DNA of 64,000 bases from an uncultured Flavobacteriaceae bacterium (lineage in GTDB: Bacteria > Bacteroidota > Bacteroidia > Flavobacteriales > Flavobacteriaceae), in NCBI GenBank assembly GCA_947500445.1, contig CANMSB010000005.1, forward strand, positions 124,001 to 188,000, in the 5' to 3' direction. This document shows positions 341 to 19,812 of the stretch, in pieces. The position numbers and the translations under genes were made by a program. The stretch's first letter is position 1. Every line of letters starts with the position of its first letter. The notes under the pieces were generated by a model. It searched no databases. It was not told the DNA's origin and saw only the letters and a program-made list of their open reading frames with translations.

Positions 341-501
341 TACCATTTTAACTTCGAAATAGCACTAATAAATCGTTTCTTTTTCAGCTGTTCTTCGTTA
401 AAAAAATAGAACCGTAGCTAAGGCTATGCTTCCATTTTTTGCCTCGAACAACTAAAAAATAATTCAATTTCTATACGCGCGATTTCAAAGTTAAAATGGT
501 A
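341..501. repeat. 161-bp palindromic MITE-like repeat, copy A1
   Basis: The element begins TACCATTTTAACTT and ends with its inverted complement; the outer 20 bp match with one mismatch. It is flanked by direct TAA triplets (338-340 and 502-504), as expected for a 3-bp target duplication. The two halves can be folded on each other along most of their length, with a CGTAGC/GCTATG stem (413-418 and 423-428) exactly at the centre. About 97% identical to copy A2 at 2251-2410. It lies 5 bp after the stop codon of the first PPK2 gene, so its transcript could form a long 3' hairpin. No coding capacity. Confidence 0.9.
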
Positions 502-2250: not shown

Positions 2251-2410
2251 TACCATATTAACTTTGAAATAGCACTAATAAATCGTTTCTTTTTCAGCTG
2301 TTCTTCGTTAAAAAATAGAACCGTAGCTAAGGCTATGCTTCCATTTTTTGCCTCGAACAACTAAAAAATAATTCAATTTCCATACGCGCGATTTCAAAGT
2401 TAATATGGTA
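2251..2410. repeat. 160-bp palindromic MITE-like repeat, copy A2
   Basis: Starts TACCATATTAACTT and ends with the exact inverted complement (20 of 20 bp). Flanked by TTA triplets at 2248-2250 and 2411-2413, a different target duplication from copy A1. Central CGTAGC/GCTATG stem at 2322-2327 and 2332-2337. It differs from copy A1 at only a few positions, including position 7 of both ends (A here, T in A1, each with its complementary partner). It sits about 100 bp downstream of the stop of the lipoprotein gene at 2507 and upstream of the PPK2 operon. The rest of the 2136-2506 gap holds only short hairpins, for example ACCGAT/ATCGGT near 2180-2200. Confidence 0.9.
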
Positions 2411-15009: not shown

Positions 15010-16368
15010 TTAGTTCTCGTTTGCCGCTATCGGTTGTTTGGAAGTCATTTGTACTTTGTCCATGATATAGGTACCCAGATTTCTACCTTGTTCAACGCCT
15101 ACTTCAACAGCGGCCCTGTAATGGATGCCACCATACATGCGACTGATCGCCGCTTCATCGGCGGCCGCCTCGAAGGATTCGAAACTACGTACCGGAAGGC
15201 CATATGGCACCTCGGTATCATCATCGAATTGAAAACCGTCTCCAAAAATATCCGTCAACGCAATGGAGGCCGCACCGGATACGACACTGTGTCCGCTCGT
15301 ATATTCGGGAAACGGAGGCGTTTGTAATACCGGTTTCCAGTTTTCATCGATATGCTGGTTGATCAGCGTTTCCGGCCGTATCAGGTTGCTGCGGTACTTT
15401 TCGTCCCAACAACTGATAAAGGCGTCCGCAATTGCCATGGAGGTCTTGGTATAGGCATATACGGTTTTGTCAAAATCACTATCGGTTTTTTTAGCGGAAA
15501 TTTTGGTAATCCCGATCCAATGGGCGCCGGGGGTTATCTTTTTTGTAGCGAACATCAAATGTCCTCGTGTAACCGATACATAGGGGTTACAGTCCCAAAA
15601 TTGCGCAATTTGAATTTCTTCGGAGGCGTCGCCATCCTTTTCTATTTTTTTACTGATGTCATACACCTCCTCTAGTTCTTTATAAAAATCAGCGGTTTTT
15701 TCCATGGAAAAGGGTGGGGGCGGTACCGGTTTAAACTGCGCTGCAGAATCGATCAAAAAGGGGCGTATTTTGCTCCAATGCGGTTCTATACCTGCCATAT
15801 AGGCCGGTGGTGTCGGCTGCCATCGTGTTTCGTCTTCCATACGTACGGTAAACTGGGGCATGGTACGGGTCTGCGCATAATTGTCTTTTTTCATCCAGTC
15901 CGCAATATGTGCCGCTACCTGTAACCCGTAGGTTTTTGAGGTATTGAAAAGGGAGGCATCCTTAGTCTCCCAAGAGGTATACAGGCTATCGCGAAAGTGC
16001 TCCATTTCCTGTTCGGAAAAAATAAGCTGTTTGCTCAATTCCATATGGGCAACGAGTGCGGCCATGGGATAATGGATGGTCTGCTCCGCATTAGGTTTGG
16101 GTATGGGCGTTAGATCGGTCACCTGTCCCGAGAGCGTGCGGTAGGTGTCGTTTTGTAAGGCGATGATCTCATAGGCCGCAATGTTGGGATAGGCAAAAAT
16201 ACGGCTCGCTACGGGCGGCGAGAAAATATCGTGGATCATTATTTCCGTTACCTTGTCTATGGCGGCATGTAAGGCATCCGGGGAAATGGTAATGGGTTCC
16301 TTTTTTTGTGTCTCCTCGCAAGACCATACCAATAGCATTCCGCCGAAAAATAATAATACTTTTTTCAT
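15010..16368 (-). CDS. Vanadium-dependent haloperoxidase/PAP2-like lipoprotein
   Basis: A 452-residue lipoprotein (lipobox LVWSC, Cys17). It carries the three vanadate/phosphate-binding blocks of the vanadium haloperoxidase/PAP2 superfamily: KYRSNLIRP near residue 326, TSGHSVVSG near 356 and SRMYGGIHYRAA near 409 (the catalytic His is the one in IHYR). The family contains true haloperoxidases and phosphatases, and the sequence does not decide which. Exported to the envelope by its lipobox. Upstream gene of a two-gene unit with the GyrI-like protein. The family's usual Asp four residues after the last His is replaced here (HYRAA). Confidence 0.85.
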   Translation of the reverse strand: MKKVLLFFGGMLLVWSCEETQKKEPITISPDALHAAIDKVTEIMIHDIFSPPVASRIFAYPNIAAYEIIALQNDTYRTLSGQVTDLTPIPKPNAEQTIHYPMAALVAHMELSKQLIFSEQEMEHFRDSLYTSWETKDASLFNTSKTYGLQVAAHIADWMKKDNYAQTRTMPQFTVRMEDETRWQPTPPAYMAGIEPHWSKIRPFLIDSAAQFKPVPPPPFSMEKTADFYKELEEVYDISKKIEKDGDASEEIQIAQFWDCNPYVSVTRGHLMFATKKITPGAHWIGITKISAKKTDSDFDKTVYAYTKTSMAIADAFISCWDEKYRSNLIRPETLINQHIDENWKPVLQTPPFPEYTSGHSVVSGAASIALTDIFGDGFQFDDDTEVPYGLPVRSFESFEAAADEAAISRMYGGIHYRAAVEVGVEQGRNLGTYIMDKVQMTSKQPIAANEN

Positions 16369-16905
16369 TGTCCTTACGCTTTTGCTTATAGTTGGGAACG
16401 ATTATAGTTTACTTAAAACGTAAAAGCAAAAATACGGAATTTCAATGTTTTATTGGTAAGAGGAGTGCTATATAAAAACATCCCTTTTTATAGTGGCTTC
16501 CGTTTCCCTTTTTCGCAAATCCCTAAAAAAGACAGTTTTTTCTTCGGTTCCGTTTTTTGGGAATTGAACAAAAGAAATGAACAGGAAGCTGAAACAGTGC
16601 TTAAAAGATTGATTTGCAATATTTTTTTGTCGAAATGAAAATGTATCGTATCTAATCCCATGAACTCATTTAGACTTTTTTAATTGGCTAAAAAATTGTC
16701 CTTTACAGCCCTGTTTTTGCCTTTTTTTCCTCTCGTAGCCCTGCTATGAAACTCAAAAAAGTCTTCAACAGGCCTTTAAATCACTAATTTTCGCTTCAAT
16801 CCAAAAAGTCTAAATGAGTTCAGTAAGAAAAACCGAATACGTCTAATCCGACTTTGTATGTTTTCTAACGTGATATTAAAAAAGGTTTAGCCAATTGGAA
16901 AAAGT
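16369..16905. other. Intergenic region with palindromic repeat B
   Basis: 537 bp between the start of the haloperoxidase-like gene and the end of the BIG2 gene. Positions 16661-16822 hold repeat B. The rest (16369-16660) is AT-rich with no convincing gene; a 61-codon forward frame at 16453-16638 has no start context, no homology cue and biased Phe/Lys content. Confidence 0.7.
16661..16822. repeat. 162-bp palindromic repeat B
   Basis: Begins TGAACTCATTTAGACT and ends with its exact inverted complement (20 of 20 bp). The two halves also match inward of the ends (ATTG, AAAATT, CCTGTT, CTTTTTT blocks), so the whole element can fold into one long hairpin. At the exact centre lies CGTAGC-CCT-GCTATG (16734-16748), the same stem words as in repeat A, although the ends are unrelated. 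No clear target duplication (flanks CCA and GTA). It lies 84 bp past the stop of the BIG2-repeat gene. Confidence 0.88.
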
Positions 16906-19812
16906 CTAATTGGGTGTTGCCGTAACAAAACCGCTGTTGCCACTGGTGCCATTAAAGCTGCCACTTAGTGTATAGTTGTATACTCCAGGGGCATAAACAT
17001 TAGAGTCGTTGGTAGCGGACTCTCCAGCGTTCGCGGTGACCGATGTAGAATCCCCGTCAATATTGAATGTGACCGAAGAGCCACCACTTCCCCCAAACGC
17101 AGATACCGTGAAAAATGAGCTTTCACAATAAATTGTTATCGTCCCTGATATTGAAGGTACGCTGGGACTGATAGTTTGGTTATTTCCAATTGTAGTGCCT
17201 CTTTTTTCGACAAATACAGTTGCCATATCCTCACCACCGTTTCCGTCGGAAATAGTATAGGTAAAAGTGGTGTTGCTACAACTGGCATCCGGGGTGTACT
17301 CTAAGCCATTACCGGTTTGAGTTACAGACCCAAGTAAAGGGTCGGTAAAACTTAATATGGAGATGGTGTCATTGTCCGGGTCATTATCGTTCCCAAGTAC
17401 ATCAATGAAAATAGAATTATTACTGGTAACTCTAGCTGAATCATCAACGGCATTTGGTGTTTGATTCGTACCTGTAACGGTCAGCTGTTTGGATCCACTC
17501 ACGCCCGACCCGTCGTTTGCCGTGGCAATAATGTTGGTGGTTCCTGCTGCTACAGCGTTCACTAGCCCCGTGGTTGCATTTACGGTGGCCACCGCGATAT
17601 TGGAACTGCTCCAGGTCACTGAGGAATTCGTCGCGTTTGCCGGCATGACCTGTTCAGAGAATTGTTCTGTCGCGTTGTCGGGTATGGAGTTGTTTGGGCT
17701 GGTTACCGTAATGGAGGTCACCGGAACATTGCTTGCCGTTACGGTCAGCTGTTTGGACCCGCTTACGCCCGACCCGTCGTTTGCCGTGGCAATAATGTTG
17801 GTGGTTCCTGCCGCTACAGCGGTCACTAGCCCCGTGGTTGCATTTACGGTGGCCACCGCGGTATTGGAACTGCTCCAGGTCACGGAGGAATTCGTTGCGT
17901 TTGCCGGCAGTACCTGTTCGGAGAATTGTTCTGTCGTGTTATCGGCTATGGAGTTGTTTGGGCTGGTTACCGTAATGGAGGTCACCGGAACATTACTTGC
18001 CGTTACGGTCAGCTGTTTGGACCCGCTTACCCCTGACCCATCGTTTGCCGTGGCGATGATGTTGGCGGCTCCTGCCGCTACGGCGGTTACCAGCCCCGTG
18101 GTTGGATTTACGGTGGCCACCGCGGTATCGGAACTGCTCCAGGTAACGGAGGAATTCGTCGCGTTTGACGGCATGACCTGTTCGGAGAACTGTTCTGTCG
18201 CGTTGTCGGGTATGGAGTTGTTTGGGCTGGTGACCGTAATGGAGGTCACCGGAATATTGGACGCGGTAACAGTAAGCTGTCGCGACCCGGTTACCCCTGA
18301 CCCATCGTTTGCCGTGGCGATGATGTTGGTGGTCCCAGCCGCTACGGCGGTTACTAGCCCCGTGGTCGCGTTTACGGTGGCCACCGCGGTATTGGAACTG
18401 CTCCAGGTTACGGAGGGGTTTGTCGCATTGGCCGGTAGTACCTGTTCGGAGAACTGTTCTGTTTCGTCGTCGGGAATCGAATTTCTGTTACTGGTCACTG
18501 TAATGGAGGTCACGGAAACAACGTTCGTCATTACTTCTATCGAAATAGTGCCCGTTGCGTCGTTTCCAACAGTTCCGTCATTGATGGTGTATTCAAACGT
18601 CGCCGTTCCCGTAAAATCGGTTGCCGGTGTAAAGGTCAAGGTATTGCCATTTTGTGTTACCGTTCCCGCATTTTCAGGCGCTACTACCCCCACGGAAACG
18701 ACCGATAACACATCGTTTTCGGGATCGATATCGTTTAAGGTAGGGTCAAGTTGGCTCGCGGTATTGGTATCGGTTGTCCTTTCATCGTTGACTGCGGTCG
18801 GCGCCTCATTAACGGCATTGTCGGCAACGTTTATGATACGGATTTCAATTGCCGTATTTCCCGCGTTATCGCTTACACTATACCGTACTTCATAGGTTCC
18901 CTCGGTACTTGTATCCACTTCGGTAGCGTCGATCGTAATGGAAGTGGTAAGATCGCCATCCACTTCGTCCACAGCGGTAGCACCCAATTCTTGATAAGGG
19001 TCATTTAGCGCAATGTTCTGGGGATTCGCTCCATTCAATTCGAGCTCGGGAGCACGTTCATCCGTTACTTCGGCAAGCACTTCAAAGGTAACTTCGGCCG
19101 TGGTTTCCTGCCCATTACTATCCCGGACTACAAAGGAGAGTATGGTCTCCCCTAGCGCACTAGGGGTAAAATTGAGCGTGTAGCTTCCGGGAACGATGGC
19201 TTCGAATTCGTTTTGTGGTATCGCGCTACCTTGCTCCGATGTTAGCGTGCCTTCCCCAGAAATAATGGTGTAGCGGTATTCATAAACCAGTTCTGGAGCG
19301 GTATTTTCTGTATTCAACACCACGGTAATTGCGGTGGGTTCATTCACGGCCACTTGAACGGCGGTACCCGAAGCCGTCCAGGTAATGGGGATTTCCGACA
19401 ACGTATAGATCAATTCCGAACTAACGGAAAAACCAAAACTGTCCGTAACGGTAACGACAACTTGCTGTTCTCCTTCCGATGTTCCCATAAAATCGAGCGA
19501 TAGGGAAAGATTATCCAATGGTAGCCCCGTATTGGGAGGGAGGATCTCACCGTCCGGTTTCAAAAAGACACCTTCACCCGACTCCAAGCGATACGAAAAA
19601 CTGTAGGTATAGTCTTCCATGATTTCTTCGGGTACCACGGTAAAGCCCGAAGCAAGCGGTTGGTTGATAAAACCTTCATCATCATATTGCGTCAGCACTT
19701 CAAATTCAACCTCGGTAAAAAGGGTCACGTTTTTTGTGCAGGAATAGATTAGACAAAAGGCAAACAACACTTTTAATAGGCTAATGTTGGTTTCTTTCGC
19801 GAAAGGTTTCAT
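16906..19812 (-). CDS. Surface lipoprotein with DUF5011, cadherin-like and four BIG2 domains
   Basis: A 968-residue protein with lipobox LIYSC (Cys25). Domains in order: N-terminal Ig-like region to about 250; DUF5011-type domain about 253-325 (ELGATAVDEVDGDLT); a cadherin-like/VCBS-type domain 333-430 (NDIDPENDVLSV); four tandem BIG2-type Ig repeats about 430-780, each 88 residues; a second cadherin-like domain 785-870 (VLGNDNDPDNDTISIL); and a C-terminal beta-rich region. No enzyme motif and no type IX sorting domain. Probably an adhesin-like or stalk protein on the cell surface, by analogy. The four BIG2 copies are near-identical, suggesting recent expansion or homogenisation. Confidence 0.85.
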   Translation of the reverse strand: MKPFAKETNISLLKVLFAFCLIYSCTKNVTLFTEVEFEVLTQYDDEGFINQPLASGFTVVPEEIMEDYTYSFSYRLESGEGVFLKPDGEILPPNTGLPLDNLSLSLDFMGTSEGEQQVVVTVTDSFGFSVSSELIYTLSEIPITWTASGTAVQVAVNEPTAITVVLNTENTAPELVYEYRYTIISGEGTLTSEQGSAIPQNEFEAIVPGSYTLNFTPSALGETILSFVVRDSNGQETTAEVTFEVLAEVTDERAPELELNGANPQNIALNDPYQELGATAVDEVDGDLTTSITIDATEVDTSTEGTYEVRYSVSDNAGNTAIEIRIINVADNAVNEAPTAVNDERTTDTNTASQLDPTLNDIDPENDVLSVVSVGVVAPENAGTVTQNGNTLTFTPATDFTGTATFEYTINDGTVGNDATGTISIEVMTNVVSVTSITVTSNRNSIPDDETEQFSEQVLPANATNPSVTWSSSNTAVATVNATTGLVTAVAAGTTNIIATANDGSGVTGSRQLTVTASNIPVTSITVTSPNNSIPDNATEQFSEQVMPSNATNSSVTWSSSDTAVATVNPTTGLVTAVAAGAANIIATANDGSGVSGSKQLTVTASNVPVTSITVTSPNNSIADNTTEQFSEQVLPANATNSSVTWSSSNTAVATVNATTGLVTAVAAGTTNIIATANDGSGVSGSKQLTVTASNVPVTSITVTSPNNSIPDNATEQFSEQVMPANATNSSVTWSSSNIAVATVNATTGLVNAVAAGTTNIIATANDGSGVSGSKQLTVTGTNQTPNAVDDSARVTSNNSIFIDVLGNDNDPDNDTISILSFTDPLLGSVTQTGNGLEYTPDASCSNTTFTYTISDGNGGEDMATVFVEKRGTTIGNNQTISPSVPSISGTITIYCESSFFTVSAFGGSGGSSVTFNIDGDSTSVTANAGESATNDSNVYAPGVYNYTLSGSFNGTSGNSGFVTATPN
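17473..18530 (-). repeat. Four in-frame 264-bp repeats encoding BIG2 domains
   Basis: Matching landmarks (TCAGCTGTTTGGA-like) recur at 17481, 17745, 18009 and 18273, exactly 264 bp apart. 264 bp is 88 codons, so copy number can change without a frameshift. The three copies nearest the gene's 3' end are the most alike; the 5'-most copy is more diverged (NRNSIPDDETEQ). Confidence 0.93.

Follow-up and report, generated by a model that had tools for sequence, protein, structure and literature searches.

Known Structured Repeats and MITEs

The closest described systems are the IS5-family MITEs of Porphyromonas gingivalis (MITE239, MITE464, MITE700, and BrickBuilt), which resemble the elements reported here by their occurrence in Bacteroidota, their intergenic location, and their ends similar to those of IS5-family ISPg elements (PMC4596501). 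ISPg4 and MITE464 begin with GAGACTGTTGCA, a start that one of the end types described below (type III) resembles. According to the sections of the same source devoted to these families, BrickBuilt is without transposase remnant, is made of 23-nt repeats, and is known from P. gingivalis and P. gulae; these sections do not mention a central hairpin common to families with different ends.

BOX elements of Streptococcus pneumoniae and S. suis are also small, structured, MITE-like repeats, those of S. suis carrying two kinds of ends with shared modules (PMC3049150). By the description given there, BOX elements consist of tandem modules and span 67 to 637 bp, whereas the present elements include one central hairpin, are mostly about 160 bp long, and have IS5-type ends. 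Correia/NEMIS and ERIC elements are of comparable size (107-155 and 127 bp) and form stem-loop transcripts with effects proposed to occur via RNase III or RNase E, orientation being of importance for ERIC; they differ by TA at their termini and by their hosts, Neisseria and enterobacteria, in the account of PMC2229807. REPs tagged with GTAG or CGTC are palindromic and present in many copies as well, but they measure 20-40 bp and bear the tag at one end, and no IS5 ends are seen in the text of PMC3733652 devoted to them. In the literature searched (titles, abstract openings, and passages, mostly outside subscription journals), no description of the present elements was found.

Repeat B and the Two Copies of Repeat A

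The window, i.e., the whole stretch of 64,000 nucleotides analysed, lies on contig C5 of the 5.2-Mb source genome (G000). Repeat B, a 160-bp palindromic element with type II ends, is located at 16662-16821 between two minus-strand ORFs (15010-16368 and 16906-19812) and is given here on the minus strand, which reads CATAGC...GCTACG. Its ends are GAACTC...GAGTTC, or TGAACTC...GAGTTCA if the element is taken as 16661-16822. The left terminal inverted repeat, GAACTCATTTAGACTTTTT, occupies 16662-16680 on the plus strand, and the right one 16803-16821 on the minus strand. The conserved core hairpin CATAGC-AGG-GCTACG (16734-16748, minus strand) reads CGTAGCCCTGCTATG on the plus strand, with CGTAGC at 16734-16739, the loop CCT, and GCTATG at 16743-16748, and it is included in a match of the inner-domain covariance model at 16703-16778 (minus strand, E 2.9e-8). 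The original prediction of an element of about 160 bp, folding along its entire length and centred on CGTAGC...GCTATG, is borne out by the centre at 16741 and by folding z scores of -9.9 (plus strand) and -8.0 (minus strand) over the whole length. The flanks read from the sequence are CAT on the left (16659-16661) and AGT on the right (16822-16824), i.e., an intact 3-bp duplication is absent from this copy. At 16886-16909 on the plus strand, 65 bp beyond the B copy, stands a fragment closely resembling, without being identical to, one end of a B element, which is probably the remnant of a second insertion. The large ORF 16906-19812 also contains four 264-bp tandem repeats (17474-18565) that are 100 to 74% identical.

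The two copies of repeat A, both on the minus strand with type I ends TACC...GGTA, carry the same central words, as had been claimed. Copy 1 (341-501) is bordered by a 3-bp duplication, TAA, at 338-340 and 502-504, with its core hairpin at 413-428 (minus strand); copy 2 (2251-2410) is bordered by TTA at 2248-2250 and 2411-2413, with its core hairpin at 2322-2337 (minus strand). Copy 2 is missing from the orthologous spacer of one congener (G007), a spacer too diverged for the exact site to be aligned. Two adjoining ORFs at 507-2135, with the A copies on either side, are putative polyphosphate kinase 2 paralogues. Both A copies and repeat B are thus imperfect palindromes of about 160 bp centred on CATAGC-N3/4-GCTACG on the minus strand. 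The pattern CGTAGC-N2-6-GCTATG occurs exactly three times in the window and never in 100 shuffles, and the covariance model, at E up to 1, matches these three elements and no others in the window. No window match to Rfam 15 exceeded the gathering score, and when eight element loci were compared with Rfam at E up to 1, the only match was MIR2670, with 22.5 bits versus the 117 needed.

Distribution of the Core

Absence of the central words from other copies was the outcome that would have spoken against the original prediction. That outcome did not occur: in the source genome, the word pair with a spacer of 2-6 is found 116 times, versus 7 for a reversed-pattern control, and a few of these pairs stand outside any palindrome (L060, L088, L091). 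The core also recurs in related genomes: the longer form GCATAGC-N3-5-GCTACGG is present in 67 of 397 Flavobacteriaceae genomes and 56 of 237 genera, amounting to 396 places in these 397 genomes (91 in the source genome) versus 10 for the control (summed by hand). A sample of the phylum yielded a core match in 23 of 395 genomes, with many matches outside the family (47) in G554 only; clear elements outside the family belong to G554 (type I-like) and G506 (type IV). Among the 19 loci L184-L202, clear paired ends are displayed by five (L184, L186, L191, L192, L194), only L184 and L186 being from outside the family, while L201 is doubtful and the remaining loci look like chance matches. A total of 137 elements was retained at an end score of 9 or more. 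In the set of 30 loci L154-L183, five failed this score (L161, L163, L167, L172, L180), the palindrome being missing by eye only in L167.

No match was obtained in plasmids with repeats B and A, in phages with repeat B as sole query, or in viral contigs with the 18-base exact core, records near the source genome being possibly excluded from the plasmid and phage searches. Any given flanking gene family was present at 3 of 134 loci at most, which argues for dispersed elements rather than for a domesticated switch of one gene. None of the 120 elements with enough flank was recorded within an ORF (119 placed and 1 unplaced, out of 137). The gene downstream on the CATAGC strand is co-oriented in 77 of the 119 cases and not in 42, as counted from crude ORF calls and non-independent copies. 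Replichore bias, judged by eye, is inconsistent across genomes. At L330 in G133, two core words stand 184 bp apart in apparently adjacent or nested elements.

End Types and Architecture

At least four end types surround the one core, which mostly lies about 73 bp from either tip. Type I ends (TACC...), the commonest here, include repeat A, and type II ends (GAACTC or GAAGTG, followed by ATTTARACTTTTT) include repeat B. Type III ends (GAGACTGTTTTGAAAT) are found in congeners and other genera, and type IV ends (ACCCGGATTATGCATTAG) have the tip ACCCG. Correia/NEMIS and ERIC elements are not known to occur with several divergent ends. Measured from CATAGC, the left tip is 74 or 73 away in 72 of the 137 elements, and the right tip is 72 or 73 away in an equal number (72). 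The total length is 155-168 in 77 elements, 169-192 in 47, and other in 13. Additional hairpins occur inside many of the longer elements, and type IV elements are longer as a group. The loop varies between 3 and 5, and the elements tolerate inserted inner hairpins of about 22-50 bp. Some A copies (e.g., L027, L028, L031-L038, and L076) carry a further hairpin module beside the core, either GATCCCCGGTCAAGCCGGGGACAGGC or the complementary sequence; it is placed left or right at mirror-image positions and on both sides in L076. Other inserts were seen in L063, L080, L041, L044, L047, and L048.

The 45 innermost nt of both arms were compared among 49 dereplicated elements with recognised ends, seven of unclassified end type being left out; in 48 cases, versus a mean of 18 and a maximum of 32 after shuffling, the nearest neighbour was of the same end type. 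Ends are therefore inherited along with the inner arms, and the end types look, from sequence comparison, like diverged, old lineages rather than fresh end swaps. The original prediction of a modular class, a common core with swapped termini, is upheld for the common core, the similar length, and the different ends, which extend to many related genomes, and not for a free swapping of termini. The core shared by A and B is real without being limited to these two, since at least two further end types carry it.

Target Duplications and IS5-type Ends

Duplication of the target was scored in 114 of the 137 elements with tips fixed. Identical 3-bp flanks were found in 36 of 59 elements of type I (shuffled mean 18.9), 26 of 38 of type II (6.4), 12 of 13 of type IV (5.2), and 2 of only 4 of type III (1.0), and 4-bp flank identity amounts to zero in every end type. 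The duplicated target is TNA for types I and IV and mostly ANT for type II. A 5-bp duplication considered for type IV was dropped, the length being 3 bp with the tip ACCCG.

The source genome includes a truncated transposase of the IS5 type, with the type II end GAACTCATTTAAACTTTTT on its right side; it matches the NCBIfam model transpos_IS5_3 with E 3.8e-24 and 85.6 bits, below the cut-off of 110. Scanning this transposase against 84,980 genomes retrieved 29 loci from Flavobacteriaceae and other Bacteroidota. Paired type II ends were present in 14 of the 24 loci scanned, about 0.9 kb apart (904-945 bp in 13, one partial). Identical 3-bp flanks border 7 of the 13 scorable loci and are, by eye, mostly ANT as in the class of repeat B. 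In G133, an IS (L272) and a core element (L169) have the variant end GAACTCATCTTGACTTTTT in common (by eye). Type II ends thus look like IS5-group transposon ends. Because they match those of IS5-family IS of about 0.9 kb with the same 3-bp duplication, the elements that bear them can be regarded as non-autonomous IS5-type elements (MITEs).

Searches by tblastn with two IS5 transposases against 144 loci fetched by the core detected none encoded, so that the elements are not IS themselves and are only possible passengers. The core was not seen within type II-ended IS5 elements. Judged from their ends, the simplest view of type II elements is that they are MITEs of IS5-family IS, to which the core would have been added. 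Derivation of the core from an IS leader was considered and is unproven, the covariance model (E <0.9) finding nothing in 25 IS loci except L228 (Aquimarina sp. RZ0), in which it detects two separate core elements. The sequence GGGCTACGG occurs in 5 of 23 distinct IS left ends (L220, L221, L222, L237, and L247). In the first 100 bp of IS5 loci L220, L225-L232, and others, the leader can form a hairpin of its own (AGGGTTGCCGATATTTGYGTT...AACCCT) that ends just before the transposase ATG, as if hiding the start codon.

For type IV, a candidate autonomous IS (L275) has flanks that are not duplicated, and the ends are suggestive of IS5-group ends. Searches for PF01609 in 15 genomes and an inverted-end scan of 30 loci gave no TACC ends, hence no autonomous partner of type I, and the inverted-end scan found no autonomous element for type III. 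The elements as a whole are short, present in many copies, devoid of a transposase gene, and bounded by terminal inverted repeats and a fixed 3-bp duplication, as MITEs are; an autonomous element with the same ends was found for type II only. Movement as an IS5-type MITE is the likely mechanism.

Twenty solitary-looking type I tips were also fetched, and no transposon was seen there when the longest ORFs were read by eye. They include 24-bp micro-palindromes, 13 exact and 3 near, the exact ones (TACCATTT-TAACTTTG-AAATGGTA) being located in the source genome at L279, L280, L282, L283, L285-L288, and L293-L297, at about position 200 of each locus as read on the tip strand. Their flanking 3-mers frequently differ. 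A second tip 844 bp away in L285 proved to be another short palindrome. These micro-palindromes may be A elements that have collapsed between AAAT repeats; alternatively, they may represent an operator-like site of the host or a micro-MITE.

Conservation and Covariation of the Core

Among 30 A copies retrieved by whole-element BLAST, the 14-nt core displays 3 mismatches in 420 (0.7%) versus 111 in 3179 (3.5%) for the arms, i.e., it is fivefold cleaner. The difference is small for 27 B copies belonging to several subfamilies, with 35 in 375 (9.3%) versus 345 in 2845 (12.1%). Aligning 49 inner domains of all types left 11 invariant and 3 nearly invariant columns, all within or beside the core, an invariance that is partly ascertained because the core words served as the search key for relatives, whereas the flanking stems were not selected for. 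Three loci (L129, L170, L181) with inserts or odd arms beside the core were left out of one core-region data set. The covariance model gave 61 hits in a set of 86 loci that had been retrieved by whole-element BLAST or end sequence, and the 12-nt core is exact in 49 of these hits (48 of 59 once two elements seen twice are removed).

Covariation is expected in any DNA palindrome. In the flanking stems, 151 cells have changes on either side yet remain paired, versus 69 after shuffling, and 92.8% of cells are paired, versus 68.4% when shuffled and at most 59.7% when slid; double changes affect 8 of 13 pairs, which is not above shuffles. On the CATAGC strand, the core keeps A.C and G.G mismatches. 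Features by which a functional RNA is recognised are thus assembled here, namely, conserved core nucleotides (the core words being the search key), covarying stems, and strand specificity.

Strand Asymmetry

In a drifting DNA palindrome, G.T and A.C mismatches are expected to be equal on either strand. The arms, scored alike on both strands with the core words omitted, show 751 G.T versus 249 A.C on the CATAGC strand; among 35 dereplicated elements, G.T mismatches are more numerous in 31 and fewer in 3, with 1 tie. The predicted RNA fold is better on the CATAGC strand in 135 of the 137 elements. Outside the family, folds show no clear preference for this strand (L184, -51.2/-52.7; L186, -49.1/-48.7; the doubtful L201, -56.9/-61.9).

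Changes among copies were summed for four families of the source genome (35, 9, 12, and 13 copies) over all positions and raw with respect to composition, giving 140 that make G.T (C>T, A>G) and 165 that make A.C (G>A, T>C). They are near-symmetric in families A and D and asymmetric in B (A>G 21, T>C 6) and C (G>A 19, C>T 6). As these changes do not lean towards G.T, mutation after insertion does not explain the G.T bias, which argues for selection on the single-stranded fold of one strand. Under this folding model, the selected molecule would probably be RNA, single-stranded DNA being a possible alternative.

Proposed Explanation and Alternatives

The elements are probably MITEs of about 160 bp moved by IS5-family transposases and built around one ancestral core, with the CATAGC strand selected as a single-stranded fold and a transcript hairpin that may aid persistence. 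In this scheme, IS5-family transposases would recognise the terminal inverted repeats, move the elements in trans, and duplicate 3 bp, types I, III, and IV presumably following type II. All types would derive from one ancestral element around GCATAGC-N3-5-GCTACGG with its G.G and A.C mismatches, the stems flanking the core being kept paired through compensatory change while one strand is selected as a single-stranded fold. The CATAGC strand would be transcribed, and the hairpin, recognised via its core, may help the element to persist, e.g., via the binding of a protein or RNase that limits harm to neighbouring transcripts.

The same MITEs could instead use their core as DNA, either as a cruciform or as the target of a host protein or transposase that helps to bring the two ends of a 160-bp element together. 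The midway position of the core at near-fixed distances from the tips would suit such a role, and the text of PMC2229807 describes in Correia elements an IHF site proposed to aid transposition. This is nevertheless unlikely, because a cruciform exposes both strands alike and does not predict the excess of G.T over A.C, and because the loop length varies and inner hairpin inserts are tolerated. Somewhat less likely still, the core would be a functionless relic in young copies of a few masters, the palindrome being kept by arm-to-arm copying. The absence of a G.T preference in the changes among copies, the B-copy core that is little cleaner than the arms, and the existence of collapsed copies are all in line with a relic, but the sharing of the core by four end types over dozens of genera despite diverged arms, the compensatory stems around conserved mismatches, and the strand bias are not.

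Termini repeatedly swapped as modules onto one core would account for four end types around the same hairpin and have a parallel in S. suis, in which BOX-type elements have two end kinds around shared inner modules according to the part of PMC3049150 concerned; since inner arms follow the end type almost without exception, such swapping appears improbable. Most improbable of all is a REP-like nature, with movement in the form of single-stranded DNA through a RAYT or an IS200-type enzyme, even though the hairpin, the strand asymmetry, and a GTAG within the core on the other strand recall such elements. To our knowledge, REP/RAYT systems make no target duplication, whereas 3-bp duplications and IS5 ends are found here; the GTAG is in the stem and not at the foot of the hairpin, where the GTAG or CGTC tag of REPs is placed, and orientations are mixed in G002 (6 and 5), though not evenly so in G133 (13 and 2).

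Significance

A MITE with IS5-type ends is already known, and what is new is a conserved structured core beneath divergent ends across genera. Going further than the proposed IS5-type MITE with a selected strand, it is suggested tentatively that the core may be a structured RNA motif absent from Rfam and carried by MITEs that have IS5-type ends of four or more kinds in Flavobacteriaceae and at least two other Bacteroidota genomes among those sampled, the RNA fold, and not the DNA ends, being the heritable identity of the element. The ends of MITEs are a requirement of the transposase and would be expected to remain unchanged. In the present elements, it is the ends that have diverged and the middle that is kept from genus to genus, in dozens of genera, with a fold specific to one strand. 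Should the core be an RNA motif under selection, these repeats would be a testable non-coding element whose spread depends on RNA structure. They would then provide these genomes with ready-made structured insertions in intergenic positions, numbering from a few to about a hundred, and would account for repeats left blank by annotation.
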